DNA from: a virus
DNA length: 28,096 nucleotides
Virus record (IMG/VR): IMGVR_UViG_3300040781_000073
Coordinates: 1 to 28,096 of that record
Direction: 5' to 3' (one strand)
Shown here: in pieces, positions 1,423 through 9,184 of the stretch
Position numbering within the stretch: position 1 is the stretch's first letter
Layout of the letters: the number at the start of each line of letters is the position of its first letter
Position numbers and translations under genes: made by a program
The notes under the pieces: model-generated
The model's database searches: none
Told to the model about the DNA's origin: nothing
The model's input: only the letters and a program-made list of their open reading frames with translations

Positions 1423-4400
1423 TTATATACTTGCTCGACTATTTGAAGCTCTTCTTGCAAGCTTTCTTACCGATGACGTAAATGGTCTTCCTTCAATACG
1501 CCCAGTTCTACCATTAATTTTCAATCCTCTTGCGAAATATTGGTTATTCAATTCATCAGCACCTGACCAGCGAACTCGCCCGCCATCCTCTGATAATACA
1601 GATGCAGATGCAGAAATTGCTGCGCCAACGTTCCTAAAGTTGAGTGGTAACGCTCGCCTGTTAACACCAGCTGATGCACCATTGAATTGATGCGCAATAG
1701 ATTCAACCAATGAACCAAACGTTAATACCGTAGGTCTAAGCACACTGGCAATTAATATATCATTAAATAGTGCGTTTAACATGTTACTCGTACTAGCGGT
1801 AGGTGAATATTGTTCTCTAATAAAATCCCTCATTCTTTCCCAAGATTTATAAAACGCTTGTAATAGCTGAGTATTATTTGGACCACTATTAATCCAAATT
1901 GAACCGTCCCAATACCAAACATCACCTTCAAAATAATTTTCATTAAATATGGTGGGTATTATATACGCATAATTTGGTTTATTATTTGTATCAGGTAATT
2001 TCGTCACATCTTCTAAAGAACCTCTATATTTCAAACCAGTTATTCTTGGATTGAATACAGGAAACACGTGTCTACCGTTATCGTCAAATAAAGATGCTAC
2101 GAAAGTCTGTATTGAAGTCTGCGATCCTTCAGTTCCGAACACTGGACTTGATACTCTAAAATCATCAGCCAAGAATTTAATAAGATTTCCTGCGTCACGT
2201 CGTGTTAGATTCAAATCAACAAATCCATACTCCGCGTTTACAAATCTTACAACTTCTCTTGATATAGATTCTTTGCGCTTAGATAATATATCTTTAGAGA
2301 ATACAAAGAAGTTTTCTTGCCATGACATATCAGGTTGTTTCAATAATGGTAATTTTTCTATATCATTATTTATTTGAGTCTGATAGAATATATTTGCAAG
2401 ATCTTGTACTTTTTGTGCCTCAACTAGTGTACCAAGTTCGTTATTTTTATTCTGACCGTTATACTTGCCAATTACCACATCATGACATATTTCGCCTAAT
2501 CTTTTATAAGACTTTGCAGTTCCTTCGCGCTGATCTTCTGGTATTCTATATATGTTATTCCAAAAATAGAAATCGGCGTTCCATCTTGATGCAACATTAC
2601 CGTCATAATTTAAATCAAAGCTAAATGCATCTAATAAATAACCAATATCGCGCTTACATTTTGCTTTATTATAATCAAGAACACTAAATTCCTGATTTAG
2701 CCACTCTATCATCGCGTCGGCTAAATCATCGCAGTTTATATCAATTAATTCTGATGATTCTTTCAGTTCTTGCGATACCCAACTTATATTAGGCTCTTTT
2801 AGTGCAGGAATTGAGTCAAGAGAGTCATTCCTAATGACATCTTCAACTATTGCAACTAAGGCTGCAACTTCTATACCTTCGGTTGGTGTTGCCGCAGATA
2901 CAAAACCACCTAGATCCTGTAGTACATCAGTATAAGCTGGATTATCTGTACTAATTCTTTGGACAATATCAGAAATAATTGTAGCCAAATAAGCATAAAC
3001 GTCTGCAGTCTGTTTTCTTGTATCAAACGGCAATACACTAATACCATTTTCAAAATAAATTTGGGCTACAATTCTAGTGGCGTGATTTGTTGAATATTGC
3101 ACATCGTGAGAAATAGCATCAACTAAGAATCCAATATCTCTCTTACACTTTTCAGTAGGGAAACTTAAACCATTATAATTGTTTGATATGAAGTTAATTA
3201 CCTGTGTTGTTAAATTGCTAACTTCATCCTCAATAAATTCTTTACTAACAATATAATTATCATTAACCCACGATATATCAGGATCAATCCTCGCCGGAAG
3301 ATCAGCATTTATAGTATCATCAGCTATATTTGCAACAATCAATGCAAGGTCTTTAACTTCCTCACCAATAAGCGGATTTGCTCCTATTATAGATAAATCT
3401 TGACTTATTGTGTTACCTTCCGTAGGCGTAATGGATCTTCTTTGAACTATAGTTTCAATAATGTTAGCAAGATGTTGGAATGCAAATTTAGTTGGCTCAC
3501 GTTGATTTTCTGGTAAAACATTAATTGCGTTTAAGAAATATATTCCCGCAACATTTAATACAGCTGCGTTACCTCTATACTGAATATCATGTGATATTGC
3601 ATCAACGATATATCCAACATCTCTAAAACATTTTTCACTATCATACGTAAAATATCTATCTTTCTGATATCTATCATTAATATATGCAATAATTTCATTT
3701 TGTATGAATAATTTATTCGCCTGTAGCTGTTGCCTTGCGACTTTTCTATTTGGATCTTTTATAAATGCTGCAGGTACTTGAATTTCTTCAATTGAACTAT
3801 TATCGACAAGATTAGCTAACGTCTGAATTAATGAAACCAATTCTGTCGCAATATCAGCATTAGAAGCACTGCCAGCAATATTTTGTGTTGTAATATTTCC
3901 AGTTGTAGGTGCCACATTAAAGTTTTGTACTACGTTTCCAGCTACAGCTGCTAAATGCTCAAATGCTAATCTTGTGGGTTCACGCTGTTCGTCTGGTAGA
4001 ATATTAATTGCATTTTCAAAGTAGTATCTTCCGGCATCAATTATTGAATTATTATATCCGTATTCAATATCTTTAGAAACTGCGTCTATAATTAACCCAA
4101 CATCACGTCTACATAAATTTTTATTGTATGATAATCCATTAAATGTCTCTGCAATATAATCAATGACACCAAATTGTACTAAAGGCTTTAGGCCATCAAT
4201 CGTTATTATTCCATCCAAATACATTTCACTTTCTATAGATGGTTCGATGTATGTAGGTATGATTTCAAAATCATCATTTTTAATCACAAACGGCACTATT
4301 GATAATAAATCTCTTACATCATTAGCGATTGCAATTCCTGCACTGCCTGTAGCATTATTTTGCGAAAGACCATTACCAATTGTATTTACAACAGTTATAT

Positions 4401-7400
4401 TCTGTAATACTAGATATGCAACTTCTGCTAAATGTTCAAAGGCTTTAGCGGTTATAACCTTTTGGTTTTCAGGTAATACACTTACAGCATTATCGAAATA
4501 CATTCTTGCATTATTTACAGATCCAGCATTTGAACTGTTTTTAATATCCCATGTTACGGAATCAATTAGATATCCAACATCTCTTTCACATTTTGCAACA
4601 TCATAAGTTAATGTTGGGTATTTATTCGCAATCCATGCAGTTATTTCAGCAGTAAAGAAATTTTTATTTGATTGTAATAATGATGCGCCTATTTCCGTAT
4701 TTGCATTAATTGTTAACGATCCGAAATTGATTGTGTCTGCAGACACAATCCCGTTTGTCATGATATCAATAATTTCATTAAACGCCGATGTAGCTCTTAT
4801 AGCAGAATCGTTATTTAAATCTAAGAGAATTCTATCTTTTACCCAGTTAATTGCTCCAACTGTTTCTGTTAATTGGTCATTAACAACTATTTCCGTTGAT
4901 TCATTTCCAGATCTATACGACAACCCTGCGAAAATTGAATTAAAGTTAGATCCTGTTGCTATATCTCTTTTTACTGCATCGAGTATTAACCCAACATCAC
5001 GTCTGCATTTTTCACCATCGTACGCGAAATAATTATTTTCAATCCAAGCAATAACTTCTTCTTGTAAGAATTCTCTGTTTATTTGTAGTTGATCTTTAGC
5101 ATTTGTTCTAGCTTGCAGCTTATCAGATTCACCAGGATCAGTCCAAATTATTGTATTTGCTGCATTTAAGCCATTTAACATTATATCAATAATTTCGCCA
5201 AACGCTTGGTTAGTTCTCACTATTGAACTTGCATCGTCAATTACGTTATTAGCAACCAATTCTTTTAAGTGTGTTACAGAACCAGATGTTTCTATTAATT
5301 GACTGTCCACAACTTCGCTAGCAGTCGCAGAATAATATCCTATGCCTGTTTGAATAGAATTAAAGTTTGTTCCTAGCAATAAATCTCTTTGGACAGCTGG
5401 TAAAATATATTCCGATATATCACGCTGACACTTATCACCATCATACACAAAATACGTATTTGCTATATATCCCATGATATGTTCTTGAATATAAAATCTA
5501 TTATTTTGTAATTGGACTCTTGCATCTTTCTTATTTGCATCGATACCATCGTCATCACTAAATATAAGTATGTTATTACTTTGCCCATTCTTAATAATAT
5601 TAATAATTTGGTCAAAGGATTCGTCTGAAGCTATTGCGCTTAATTCGGAATTTGCTTGGTTTAATATAAGTTCACTTGTTTTATCTCTTAATTTTTTATA
5701 CGCTGAAATAGTTTCATCTTTTTGATTATTTAAAACTTTAGATGCAGTTGCCATATAATACGCATCACCAGCAGTGACAGTATTGTAGTTCGTACCAAGC
5801 ATCATATCATATTTTACTGCAGGTAAAATATAATCAGTCGTGTCACGTCTACATTTAGTACTATCATATGCAAAGAATTCGTCATTATCTTCAATCCAAT
5901 CAATCAATTCATCCGTTATGAAATCTTTATTCTCTTGTAATAATTGGCGTGATGCAGTTCTTGCGACTACGCCCGTATCTTCAAATAATATCGGGGACGC
6001 GTAGTTTTCGCCATTTTCAAGAACATTTAATATTTCGGTGAATGATGTATTTGCTCTTTCAATAATTGCATTATTTGCATTTTGGAATACATCAGATACC
6101 ACTTCTCTTAAATGGTTGATGGCTCCAGTTGTTTCAGTTAATTGTTCATTAACTACAACGTATGATATCGGGCTACGATAAGTTATACCGCATAATCTTC
6201 CCCAATAATTTGAATTTAGCGCAATGTCATAGCCTACACTATCTACAATTATTTCTGAGTCTCTTTTGCATTTTTCAGCGTCGTATGTTTGGTAATCTAA
6301 TCCACCATTTACTGTATTTGCCGTTAAGTATTCAACTAAGTCATCTATAATTATTTCAGAATTCTGTAAAAGTGTATCAGCAAAATTAACATCCTGTGTA
6401 AGATCTACTTCAGTAGATCTTGGTTGAAATATTTCAGTGGTACCTTTTGCACGCATTGATATGTCACCAAACTGAGTACCTGAGTTATTTAGTGTCATTT
6501 GGCCACCTTCTAGTGCATAAAAGGCGCATCGTACAAATATTGATAACGAACCTATACCGTTAATACCTGCACCATTTCTTGCAACATAACCCATACCATT
6601 CTGAGAACGTGGTGTAAAACCAAAACACAGTACGTATGTATATAGAGAATCCGTGTCAAGAACGCGTCTATCCGCTAATACACAACCACCTCCACGACCA
6701 ACTAAAGGGTTAGGAAAATCTTCAGGTCCTATTTCTGCAATGGTAACTAAACCACCAGATTCAGCATAAATTATATCCCCAGGACTTATGTTACCTTTTA
6801 TATTTCTAACATACAATTCATTATTATTTAAGTCATTAATATATGTTATAATTGCAGTTGCACCACTTGAGAATGTTACTTCATCTTCAAATGCGATAAT
6901 ACCCGTTTTATCGTTTTCTAATATTAATTGTGTACCTAAGTCCGCTATAGTACCTTTTGAATTGAAAGGTTGTAATGGTGGCTCGACGTCAAGACGCTTG
7001 AAGTTTGATAGTTGAGAACTATCTCGTATATAAGGAGATCTTCTTAATAGTGCGCCTGGGCGATATGCAACACCAAATCCAACTGTAGGAAAATCGAAGT
7101 TATCTATTTCAAAGTTTAGGAATGAAAAACCTTGCACATAACAACCAGATCCAACCAGTATCGCATTGATTCTTTCGAATCCTTTTTCTGCCTCTATTAC
7201 AGTTGCGTATTGGCCTGCAGATGAAGTTAATGCACAATCATCAGGCAACCACACGGATTCTTTAATATAATATGTGCCAGGGCCAACTGATATATGAATA
7301 GCGTTATTAATGTCGTTACGTGAATATTCTCCACCAGCTTTTTCTAGCGCGATTTCAGCAGCTCTTTGGAGTGTTCTCACTGGTTCTAAAATGGAACCAC

Positions 7401-8088
7401 TATTACGATCGTCACCATCTACGTCTACATAAACTTTTAACGCTTTTGCTGTACTTTTTGATATTTCAGAGAAGAATTGTTTATACGTGAATTGTTCTGT
7501 TTCGCCGGTTCTTTGATTCTTAAGCGCAAAATATGAATTCTCGTCAATTCTCAAATCCTCATATGGATTATTAAGATCCATGTCGAAGTCAACTAAGTCT
7601 GATCTTAATACTTTACCATCTTGAATTGTTGTACTTGAGAATATATTATTATTACCTTCACCATCATTGAAGGTAGAGCTAGTCATTTCAACATTATTTG
7701 CAGTTGAATTGGTTATTTCTCCATCGTTAAACGTGCTTTGGTCAATGTCTCCTGTTTGAAAAACGGAGTCACTGATTGTCATATTATTTGCAATTGTATT
7801 GAATATCTCACCATCACTGAAAGTACTTAATGTAATTTCACCTTCGGTGAAAGATGTAGTTGATATTCTAGAGTCTAAAATGTCCGTATTCGATATGAGT
7901 ACGTTTTCAATTGTACCACCCGTGATCTCTATTCTTGAAAACACTTCAAATTGAATAGCTTCAACTAGTTCCTTACGAGTAATACTCTTTGTGCCATCGT
8001 CGCCTTGCACTAGGTTTACGATAACAAGCAGATCTTCTGGTCTTGTATTTACACCCGTAATCGGTTCTAATTCTGTAATCTTAGACAT
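1423..8088 (-). CDS. Giant modular tail fibre / baseplate-rim protein
   Basis: This encodes 2221 aa. Residues 1-75 form a head region (MSKITELEPITGVNTRPEDL). At about 75-160 are short repeats of the type STFNDGEITNSTANN, which look like a pentapeptide or beta-solenoid. About 220-560 resembles a pectate-lyase-type right-handed beta-helix (VYVDVDGDDRNSGS, PVRTLQRAAEIA, then many Gly/Val turns). Residues 600-1990 hold ten modules centred on Y-x-x-x-K-C-x-R-D followed by an amphipathic helix. The module cysteines are at about 607, 746, 887, 1028, 1167, 1326, 1487, 1648 and 1811, and the tenth copy has Thr at 1962. The C-terminal region ends in a basic tail (SSVRKLARRASNSRASI). Proteins with such modules occur in marine T4-like phages as virion proteins; the exact location is not known to me. 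A perfect late promoter box lies 24 bp upstream. The AGG-type ribosome site 9 nt from the ATG is weak. Confidence 0.85.
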   Translation of the reverse strand: MSKITELEPITGVNTRPEDLLVIVNLVQGDDGTKSITRKELVEAIQFEVFSRIEITGGTIENVLISNTDILDSRISTTSFTEGEITLSTFSDGEIFNTIANNMTISDSVFQTGDIDQSTFNDGEITNSTANNVEMTSSTFNDGEGNNNIFSSTTIQDGKVLRSDLVDFDMDLNNPYEDLRIDENSYFALKNQRTGETEQFTYKQFFSEISKSTAKALKVYVDVDGDDRNSGSILEPVRTLQRAAEIALEKAGGEYSRNDINNAIHISVGPGTYYIKESVWLPDDCALTSSAGQYATVIEAEKGFERINAILVGSGCYVQGFSFLNFEIDNFDFPTVGFGVAYRPGALLRRSPYIRDSSQLSNFKRLDVEPPLQPFNSKGTIADLGTQLILENDKTGIIAFEDEVTFSSGATAIITYINDLNNNELYVRNIKGNISPGDIIYAESGGLVTIAEIGPEDFPNPLVGRGGGCVLADRRVLDTDSLYTYVLCFGFTPRSQNGMGYVARNGAGINGIGSLSIFVRCAFYALEGGQMTLNNSGTQFGDISMRAKGTTEIFQPRSTEVDLTQDVNFADTLLQNSEIIIDDLVEYLTANTVNGGLDYQTYDAEKCKRDSEIIVDSVGYDIALNSNYWGRLCGITYRSPISYVVVNEQLTETTGAINHLREVVSDVFQNANNAIIERANTSFTEILNVLENGENYASPILFEDTGVVARTASRQLLQENKDFITDELIDWIEDNDEFFAYDSTKCRRDTTDYILPAVKYDMMLGTNYNTVTAGDAYYMATASKVLNNQKDETISAYKKLRDKTSELILNQANSELSAIASDESFDQIINIIKNGQSNNILIFSDDDGIDANKKDARVQLQNNRFYIQEHIMGYIANTYFVYDGDKCQRDISEYILPAVQRDLLLGTNFNSIQTGIGYYSATASEVVDSQLIETSGSVTHLKELVANNVIDDASSIVRTNQAFGEIIDIMLNGLNAANTIIWTDPGESDKLQARTNAKDQLQINREFLQEEVIAWIENNYFAYDGEKCRRDVGLILDAVKRDIATGSNFNSIFAGLSYRSGNESTEIVVNDQLTETVGAINWVKDRILLDLNNDSAIRATSAFNEIIDIMTNGIVSADTINFGSLTINANTEIGASLLQSNKNFFTAEITAWIANKYPTLTYDVAKCERDVGYLIDSVTWDIKNSSNAGSVNNARMYFDNAVSVLPENQKVITAKAFEHLAEVAYLVLQNITVVNTIGNGLSQNNATGSAGIAIANDVRDLLSIVPFVIKNDDFEIIPTYIEPSIESEMYLDGIITIDGLKPLVQFGVIDYIAETFNGLSYNKNLCRRDVGLIIDAVSKDIEYGYNNSIIDAGRYYFENAINILPDEQREPTRLAFEHLAAVAGNVVQNFNVAPTTGNITTQNIAGSASNADIATELVSLIQTLANLVDNSSIEEIQVPAAFIKDPNRKVARQQLQANKLFIQNEIIAYINDRYQKDRYFTYDSEKCFRDVGYIVDAISHDIQYRGNAAVLNVAGIYFLNAINVLPENQREPTKFAFQHLANIIETIVQRRSITPTEGNTISQDLSIIGANPLIGEEVKDLALIVANIADDTINADLPARIDPDISWVNDNYIVSKEFIEDEVSNLTTQVINFISNNYNGLSFPTEKCKRDIGFLVDAISHDVQYSTNHATRIVAQIYFENGISVLPFDTRKQTADVYAYLATIISDIVQRISTDNPAYTDVLQDLGGFVSAATPTEGIEVAALVAIVEDVIRNDSLDSIPALKEPNISWVSQELKESSELIDINCDDLADAMIEWLNQEFSVLDYNKAKCKRDIGYLLDAFSFDLNYDGNVASRWNADFYFWNNIYRIPEDQREGTAKSYKRLGEICHDVVIGKYNGQNKNNELGTLVEAQKVQDLANIFYQTQINNDIEKLPLLKQPDMSWQENFFVFSKDILSKRKESISREVVRFVNAEYGFVDLNLTRRDAGNLIKFLADDFRVSSPVFGTEGSQTSIQTFVASLFDDNGRHVFPVFNPRITGLKYRGSLEDVTKLPDTNNKPNYAYIIPTIFNENYFEGDVWYWDGSIWINSGPNNTQLLQAFYKSWERMRDFIREQYSPTASTSNMLNALFNDILIASVLRPTVLTFGSLVESIAHQFNGASAGVNRRALPLNFRNVGAAISASASVLSEDGGRVRWSGADELNNQYFARGLKINGRTGRIEGRPFTSSVRKLARRASNSRASI
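2194..6270 (-). repeat. Ten tandem C-x-R-D fibre modules (protein-level repeat)
   Basis: The codons for the conserved Cys lie at 6268-6270, 5851-5853, 5428-5430, 5005-5007, 4588-4590, 4111-4113, 3628-3630, 3145-3147 and 2656-2658; the tenth site (Thr) is at 2203-2205. In transcription order the spacings are 417, 423, 423, 417, 477, 483, 483, 489 and 453 bp. There are thus two size classes of about 140 aa and about 161 aa, arranged in blocks and not alternating, plus a final 151-aa spacing to the degenerate copy. The DNA of the copies has diverged strongly, so the repeat is ancient at the protein level and not a recent duplication. Confidence 0.88.
4729..4750. repeat. Perfect 22-bp palindrome inside the fibre gene
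   Basis: The left half GATTGTGTCTG is followed directly by its exact reverse complement, with a PstI-like CTGCAG at the centre. It lies within coding sequence for the I-V-S-A-D-T-I-N segment of the modular fibre. In RNA it would form an uninterrupted stem except for the few central bases. It is not followed by a U-run on either strand, so it is not a typical terminator. Confidence 0.9.
6401..6420. repeat. 9-bp inverted repeat with 2-bp centre
   Basis: AGATCTACT, two bases, then AGTAGATCT. It lies in the modular fibre gene over codons for R-S-T-E-V-D-L. No U-run follows. It may be a chance hairpin or a site for a dimeric DNA-binding protein. Confidence 0.8.
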
Positions 8089-8161: not shown

Positions 8162-9184
8162 TTATTTATTCTCCAACTTTTTTACTTTGTCACTTAATTC
8201 TTTTATGGATTCTACTAATAGCGAAACTACATTTCCATACCGAATTGCCTTATAAATTTCACCATTTGTATTTTCAACCTCATAAACGGCTTCAGGTAGA
8301 ACTTTTTCTAATTCTTGCGCTATTAAACCTGTTGATAACGACCCGGGTTTATTTTTATATTCAAATGTATAACCTGATAGTGTGTTAATTTTATCAAGAC
8401 TGTTTTCAATTTTTAATATATTCTTTTTTAATCTAATATCTGAGAAATCGAATCCTGTCGTAATATCACCACCAACATTTAGTGCACCCGTAACTGATAA
8501 ATTGCCAGTTAATGTACCATTTTGATTATTTCTTAAATACGATGATGCGGTTTGACCACCTAGTTGCACTGCGTTTATATTTAGATCATCAATGAAATTT
8601 TTATTTACTGTACCATTAATTGCAGCATCTACACGATCTGATGTATAATAAACATTGTTTGCACCTTCAACTACATCATCTGTCGTGATATCTAAATTAA
8701 AACCTTCGCCACCTATACTTTCTGTAATTATTATATTTTGTATTGTTAATGTACCATCTGGCGATAGTTGAAATTTGTTCGAACCTATTCCAGTATTTAT
8801 AATAAAATTTGCATCAGTAGATTCTTCCATCCCAATATCCCAAGATGTAGTTCCATCAGAATATCTTGTTCTGCCACCACTGGCATTAAATGTATATGTT
8901 GCGCATATAGGTGATTCAGTACCAAGAATTGATATTGGGTTATCGAAGCCTATAACATCATTATTAAAAGATTCTATTATATCAATTGTTAATGTGTCAG
9001 ATATTGAAATATTATTGGCACTAAAATTACCAATTAGTGTAGCGTTACCAGTTGTTTCGTCACCCTGCCCAATGGACGCAGTTAACACTTCTTCTCTCAT
9101 AAGATTAACTAGTTCGTTAGTTTTATCAAACCAATTTTGAAATGTCTGTGTGGTATTAAGGTCTAATATTGATGCCTTAGCCAT
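8162..9184 (-). CDS. Tail fibre with C-terminal S74 self-cleaving chaperone
   Basis: This encodes 340 aa. The N-terminal part (MAKASILDLNTTQTFQNWFDKTNELVN) is the helical start common in marine T4-like fibre proteins. The middle, about 50-245, is beta-rich (e.g. VTGALNVGGDITTG). From residue 248 the sequence matches the peptidase S74 / endosialidase intramolecular chaperone family: SDIRLKKNI, then LSGYTFEYK, STGLIAQELEKVLPEAV and a C-terminal helix VSLLVESIKELSDKVKKL. In this family the domain drives trimer folding and then cuts itself off just before the Ser of S-D-x-R-x-K, here between F247 and S248. Ser248 and the downstream Lys are present, so cleavage is likely intact. GGAG lies 9 nt before the ATG, and the gene starts 3 bp after the coiled-coil gene. 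Confidence 0.9.
   Translation of the reverse strand: MAKASILDLNTTQTFQNWFDKTNELVNLMREEVLTASIGQGDETTGNATLIGNFSANNISISDTLTIDIIESFNNDVIGFDNPISILGTESPICATYTFNASGGRTRYSDGTTSWDIGMEESTDANFIINTGIGSNKFQLSPDGTLTIQNIIITESIGGEGFNLDITTDDVVEGANNVYYTSDRVDAAINGTVNKNFIDDLNINAVQLGGQTASSYLRNNQNGTLTGNLSVTGALNVGGDITTGFDFSDIRLKKNILKIENSLDKINTLSGYTFEYKNKPGSLSTGLIAQELEKVLPEAVYEVENTNGEIYKAIRYGNVVSLLVESIKELSDKVKKLENK

Follow-up and report, generated by a model that had tools for sequence, protein, structure and literature searches.

A giant phage fibre predicted to consist largely of tandem phycobiliprotein-like modules that may bind bilins

Introduction

In phycobiliproteins, the X and Y helices mediate assembly of the antenna, and the chromophore is held by three residues: a Cys that forms the bilin thioether, an Arg that holds the propionate and an Asp that holds the pyrrole nitrogens. 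The light-harvesting members (PF00502: phycocyanin, phycoerythrin and allophycocyanin) are separate alpha and beta subunits of 160–177 aa, with K-C-x-R-D where helix E begins; C-x-R-D is their bilin-attachment motif (PMC10151467). Phycobiliprotein-type globins are also known outside photosynthesis, as the bilin biosynthesis-associated globins (BBAGs) of heterotrophic bacteria (Rockwell 2023, PMC10151467). BBAG-1 and BBAG-3 contain CXRD and take up bilin without a lyase, and their genes are located near those of heme oxygenase and ferredoxin-dependent bilin reductase (FDBR) (PMC10151467).

Bilin genes (hemO-pcyX, pebS, pcyA and cpeT) are also carried by marine phages. One paper calls the purpose of phage pebS and pcyA 'a mystery' and describes the role of phage cpeT as 'unresolved' (PMC3037559); in another, the purpose of phage hemO-FDBR is 'still enigmatic' (PMC11480375). 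In the available passages of these papers, phytochrome or a BBAG is named as a possible acceptor, and no phage-encoded one is proposed (PMC11480375, PMC3037559). No description of phycobiliprotein-like domains in fibres was found in the open-access phage literature.

Here, a giant fibre gene was analysed in a 28-kb record of an uncultured virus (IMGVR_UViG_3300040781_000073, positions 1 to 28 096; the whole stretch is called the window). Its product contains tandem modules of 140–163 aa, close in length to phycobiliproteins, which are predicted to share with the light-harvesting proteins a globin-like fold along almost their entire length (Z 15–16), with K-C-x-R-D at the beginning of helix E. 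In contrast to the separate antenna subunits, the modules are beads inside a single 2221-aa fibre; they have no X/Y assembly helices, their B–E loop is shorter by about 10 aa, identity is about 10–15% and their bilin is only putative. They are like BBAGs, as these are described, in being predicted phycobiliprotein-type globins, and like BBAG-1 and BBAG-3 in having CXRD. BBAGs are single-domain cellular proteins encoded in clusters with pre-PcyA, V4R and Fe-S proteins, whereas the window gene sits among baseplate and fibre genes; BBAG genes lie near those of heme oxygenase and FDBR, whereas the phage cassette lies apart from the fibre gene. The phage bilin genes occur in the same marine phage groups as the modules but encode enzymes. 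Direct homologues sharing the module are the giant fibre or baseplate proteins of cyanomyoviruses (PHROG 4527, 5342 and 701), which are often longer, contain other inserted domains and are annotated merely as tail fibre, structural or hypothetical.

Results

Organization of the giant fibre

The giant fibre ORF (1423..8088, minus strand, as are all the features described below) encodes 2221 aa. Its product matched PHROG tail-fibre families, and it is positioned downstream of T4-like gp6/gp25/gp5-like baseplate genes and of the gene for a 1770-aa DUF4815 protein; a tail-tube-cap-like gene and genes for S74-chaperone and collagen-like fibre proteins are also present around it. With these matches and this position, the label 'giant fibre' of the preliminary description appears apt. 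The product would be extracellular, judging from the same matches and position. By the baseplate genes of the window, the nearest phages are Sinorhizobium phiM12 and Caulobacter Cr30, and neither psbA nor psbD was found on large module-bearing contigs related to the window. The host is therefore probably not a cyanobacterium, since these contigs are without psbA/psbD and the baseplate genes are nearest to those of alphaproteobacterial T4-like phages; assignment of the window phage to the cyanophages is unsupported.

The N-terminal 199 aa (7492..8088) include a stretch (aa 61–120) resembling pentapeptide-type repeats in the translation, and gave a weak match to PF13599 (E 0.0065, under the cut-off). 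Residues 200–556 (6421..7491) probably form a right-handed beta-helix (pectate-lyase-like) domain, although no Pfam family was matched. Ten modules follow. Four belong to a short class: module 1 (6004..6420, motif Cys607), module 2 (5581..6003, Cys746), module 3 (5158..5580, Cys887) and module 4 (4741..5157, Cys1028). The next five belong to a long class: module 5 (4264..4740, Cys1167), module 6 (3781..4263, Cys1326), module 7 (3298..3780, Cys1487), module 8 (2809..3297, Cys1648) and module 9 (2356..2808, Cys1811). Modules 2–6, 8 and 9 were defined by motif, alignment and tree; module 1 was matched by PF00502 and module 7 was modelled (see below). Module 10 (1999..2355, end approximate), recognized by its motif, is a terminal variant in which Thr1962 (LTRRD) replaces the Cys. 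The C-terminal domain (1423..1998, aa 2031–2221 and stop) is strongly conserved among relatives.

Conservation of the motif

The nine K/L-C-x-R-D motifs and the tenth, T-x-R-D, were found just as reported in the preliminary description, with successive spacings of 139, 141, 141, 139, 159, 161, 161, 163 and 151 aa, i.e. in the ranges 139–141, 159–163 and 151 aa. In shuffles of the same protein 0.0085 [KL]CxRD were expected, against the nine observed (maximum 1 in 2000 shuffles). In a MAFFT alignment of the nine Cys modules, the C, R and D of the motif and a later D, N, Y and T were invariant.

Relatives were collected as 79 viral loci retrieved with the whole protein as query, and six cyanophage isolates were added. 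With a profile of the nine modules, 850–860 domains were detected at E < 1e-4 in 87 ORFs, from 87 loci, which bears out the kinship of the copies, and iterated profiles brought the number to about 866. Among 823–825 readable copies, C was conserved at about 100%, R at 99%, D at 100% and K at 82%; D at +14 from the Cys, N at +20 and Y at +30 were near-invariant as well. Free variation of the Cys among homologues can thus be dismissed, as it is near-invariant in the 866 copies. Sequence identity between modules is often below 30%, and the Arg of the motif is sometimes replaced in cyanophage modules. The view that each module has one Cys holds in that only the motif Cys is kept from module to module; the whole protein has 17 Cys, those outside the motifs including Cys633, Cys1786, Cys1868 and five in the N-terminal part.

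In the terminal module, T or S occupied the Cys position and R-D was kept in all 74 relatives with a readable motif, a count conditional on a search pattern in which R-D was obligatory and which had in part been adjusted to T. No Cys was found at this position in the inspected sequence of any relative. The terminal module is a natural Cys-less control copy. The retention of R-D in it indicates that R-D has at least one role that does not involve a covalent bilin.

Most relatives have eleven modules and one has 19, the most seen, within a 4182-aa open frame (L042, aa 1–4182). Spacings of 241, 345, 658 and 766 aa in relatives are due to extra domains of about 104–108 aa inserted between modules. 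In two relatives (L004, aa 960–1840; L005, aa 957–1856), one to six such domains occur each time between fixed modules, with the consensus TPTxATYDPxTG...FTFxC...HPR...ITVNVG...HTFVSA, which contains a conserved C...H. These domains are absent from the window fibre.

History of the modules

A tree was built from 124 modules of 12 phages. The branch parting 56 short-class from 68 long-class modules had an SH-aLRT support of 100, and the length difference is mainly located between the C-terminal helices G and H, according to the alignment and the model. Modules were grouped by position (20–28 label changes) rather than by phage (113 label changes). The proposal of two rounds of amplification from one ancestor therefore needs refining: a single ancestor and two length classes forming two deep clades are retained, and the amplification is not recent, since modules group by position across phages and the duplications must be old. 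In 11-module relatives, module 7 groups with module 4 and module 8 with module 5, and this pattern suggests that a block (modules 4-5-...) was copied to positions 7–8.

Predicted fold

The fold of the module had been left open in the preliminary description; the models point to that of the phycobiliproteins and bilin-binding globins. Module 7, submitted to AlphaFold2 with an alignment of 108 modules, gave a model of six helices (pLDDT 91.3, pTM 0.87), in which the globin-like set A, B, E, F, G and H is present. When this model was compared with the PDB using Foldseek, the best 38 matches were all phycobiliproteins (one of them an engineered bacterial fluorescent protein of this family). Globins came next, interspersed with more phycobiliproteins; E-values were modest (6e-3 at best) with a probability of 1.00. 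In a VIA comparison with phycobiliproteins, module 7 reached Z values up to 15.5 over 143 residues. A two-module model (modules 4 and 5) gave Z 16.3 and an rmsd of 2.1, aligned mainly over module 5. Module 4 was barely covered in this comparison, so that the short class is assigned to the fold by its sequence homology to the long class and by the Pfam match of module 1. The scoring of these fold comparisons is independent of the C-x-R-D motif, and we consider it very probable that the modelled domain has the phycobiliprotein/bilin-binding-globin fold.

In the module 7 model, Cys51 is within helix 48–68, at the start of helix E. Residues 1–9 form a coil, after which helix A (10–21) comes first; single-module structural alignments begin at residue 20–33 of the phycobiliprotein chain. 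The X/Y helices of antenna phycobiliproteins were not found in this model, and the module is therefore not a subunit of a light-harvesting antenna. Phycobilisome mimicry, i.e. a fibre assembling with host phycobilisomes, was set aside, given the lack of X/Y helices and the presumed extracellular location of the fibre.

Sequence comparison with phycobiliproteins

Phycobilisome (PF00502) was the only Pfam family above its cut-off in the whole fibre protein, matching aa 564–677 in module 1 (22.9 bits, cut-off 22.2); module 1 searched alone scored 19.4 bits. It was also the family matched by most single modules (16/108, the next best family matching two). In NCBIfam, the sole match below E 0.01 was phycocyanin alpha, far under its cut-off. 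Searches of PDB sequences with module profiles retrieved phycocyanin in the right register, with non-significant E-values (0.28 and 0.55) and behind an unrelated short protein.

When the modules were aligned with 44 diverse phycobiliproteins using hhalign, the score was 38.7 (pairwise E 9e-6) against a maximum of 20.7 in 60 column shuffles, and the KCxRD of the modules was placed on that of the phycobiliproteins. Once the motif was masked, the score (18.3) was at the level of the null (maximum 18.9), so that the sequence kinship leans on the motif, and the fold is an independent line of evidence. A phycobiliprotein profile scored 91 of 440 modules above 10 bits and none when the modules were reversed or shuffled; when the flanks were shuffled and the motif kept, one of 440 passed. 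From this difference and the loss of signal after masking, motif and flanks act jointly and the motif is dominant. Conversely, 49 of the 50 top matches of the module profile among cyanobacterial ORFs were phycobiliproteins, which make up 20% of that set. With fold and sequence taken together, homology to bilin-binding globins is strongly indicated, and shared descent is likely. The modules themselves were not found in 386 cyanobacterial genomes (a search run without a positive control).

Bilin genes in relatives of the window phage

The closest relative of the window (L002, contig of 77 kb) has a fibre 69% identical to that studied here. On its contig and on a 170-kb contig (L014), a heme oxygenase gene is directly followed by an FDBR gene, away from the fibre gene. 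The reductases are PcyA/PcyX-like, and both contigs (L197 and L198) are T4-like and without psbA. Published hemO-pcyX cassettes from marine phages (PMC11480375) resemble this cassette. Heme oxygenase and FDBR were not found on module-bearing contigs of 156, 137 and 119 kb. Both genes occur on just 2 of the 20 uncultured contigs with modules, and no module was found on 36 other PcyX contigs, mostly short fragments; the idea that modules always travel with bilin synthesis genes was rejected on these counts. The link to bilin genes in this group is thus partial. In none of the large uncultured relatives were psbA/psbD, CpeT or CpeS found, and their host may therefore make no phycobilins.

Modules and bilin genes in cyanophages

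Modules were present in at least 251 phage records and in 16 of the 22 phage isolates tested, eight of which had been picked for holding modules. CpeT, a member of the bilin-lyase family, was detected above threshold in 13 of the 16 module-bearing isolates and in none of the six module-less ones. Two others of the 16, P-SSM7 and S-ShM2, are given as having CpeT in a published table, where S-SM2 and S-SSM7 are listed without it (PMC3037559). As predicted from this absence, modules were not found in the first 145 kb of S-SM2 and S-SSM7, a region that takes in the baseplate genes as well as many of those for fibres and stops 46 and 88 kb, respectively, before the end of the genome. When 19 phages from the isolate test were combined with S-SM2, S-SSM7 and Syn1, 16 of these 22 cyanophages had modules and CpeT, five had neither and one had modules only (Fisher p about 2e-4, kinship ignored). 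The co-occurrence is suggestive, as the test ignores kinship and the module-less phages may represent few lineages.

In about 20 phages, a full-length CpeT gene lies 1–6 kb upstream of the module-bearing giant gene, on the same strand. These are ACG-2014e/i/j, S-CAM1, S-CAM3, S-CAM4, S-PM2, S-RSM4, S-WAM2, S-H9-1, S-H9-2, Syn1, S-RIM32, S-RIM44, several Sf phages and AG-345-P14; S-SCSM2R, judged by best match, is an exception to this order. Identity between their CpeT proteins goes down to 37%. Part of this adjacency can be put down to gene order that was inherited.

A CpeS-family lyase was found in S-CBWM1, which has no modules, and an FDBR in P-SSM2, which also has none. Among module-bearing isolates, FDBR was present in 4/4 Prochlorococcus versus 0/12 Synechococcus phages, as expected if the phage supplies what its host is without; host and lineage are confounded in this comparison. 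A bilin reductase was seen in all five Prochlorococcus phages tested (P-SSM2, P-SSM4, P-HM1, P-RSM4 and P-SSM7) and the same model detected none in the Synechococcus phages to which it was applied.

Discussion

The account that we favour, by a modest measure, is that the modules are divergent phycobiliprotein/bilin-binding globins used as beads of a fibre and that, in some phages, they bind bilin. They would be strung in tandem along a giant fibre associated with the baseplate of a T4-like marine phage, each retaining helices A, B, E, F, G and H of the globin core without the X/Y helices, and their C-x-R-D, located where helix E begins, would be an inherited bilin-attachment site. In at least some phages, the Cys modules may bind a linear tetrapyrrole during assembly, loaded by CpeT-family proteins or by spontaneous attachment. 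The main job of the fibre would remain that of a long spacer or adhesin; stability, light or redox sensing and host attachment are candidate purposes for a fibre pigment. Retention of bilin binding is put forward tentatively, and the presence of bilin in at least some virions is possible, a little short of probable. Somewhat more doubtful is the fuller proposal that marine T4-like phages carry bilin-loaded fibres, i.e. are chromoprotein virions, in which bilins made by HemO with PcyX, PebS or PcyA, of phage or host origin, are attached to the module Cys, unaided or via the phage CpeT, in up to about a dozen modules per fibre.

A serious competitor, given about the same weight as the chromoprotein virion, is that the modules descend from a bilin-binding globin and the fold now serves as a rigid spacer without chromophore, with C-x-R-D capping helix E and packing the core. 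Tandem domains are frequent in fibre spacers, the Cys-less terminal module retains R-D, and heme oxygenase and FDBR are missing from most large relatives, psbA and lyases from all of them. Such an apo scaffold leaves the CpeT neighbourhood and co-occurrence unexplained, however, and at such divergence Ala, Ser, Val or Thr usually takes the place of a buried structural Cys, yet here the Cys is kept at about 100% in 866 copies across phage groups. That this position tolerates another residue is shown by the terminal module, where it is always T or S.

That an unrelated helical domain arrived by convergence at both the C-x-R-D motif and a globin-like arrangement of its helices is very improbable and already disfavoured: the sequence signal does fall to the null after motif masking and middling structural matches come easily to helical folds, but Foldseek and VIA place phycobiliproteins far above other helical proteins, the motif falls in identical register in the profile alignment, and the flanks contribute beyond it. 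The preliminary description had also offered the Cys as a metal ligand or a cross-chain disulfide in a trimeric fibre, for which its single conserved copy per module and the supposed extracellular location would speak. We regard this as the least probable reading. Nothing points to metal, as the module has no conserved His or Cys partner; phage tails are assembled in the reducing cytoplasm, and cross-chain disulfides are unlikely because the Cys belongs to the motif for bilin attachment, within a predicted phycobiliprotein fold.

Under the favoured account of bilin-binding beads, the giant fibre modules are a phage-encoded candidate bilin acceptor that keeps the attachment Cys. Bilin-loaded fibres, if real, would account for the bilin and CpeT genes that marine phages carry, also where the hosts have no phycobilisomes, and the virions would be coloured or photoactive. 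If the modules are not loaded, an antenna-protein fold would still have been turned into a virion building block, in cyanophages and in psbA-less relatives. The finding matters because the open question of what phage bilin genes are for becomes testable: pigment-carrying fibres can be looked for, also in the cultured phages S-PM2, P-HM1 and Syn9.

Two other putative fibre genes flank the giant one on the same strand. The adjoining gene (8162–9184) encodes a 340-aa protein with a C-terminal Peptidase_S74 intramolecular chaperone and is probably another fibre tip. On the other side (3–986), a collagen-like fibre protein with GxQGxQG repeats (Pfam Collagen) runs past the end of the window, and tandem DNA repeats of 9, 36 and 72 bases lie within this gene region.
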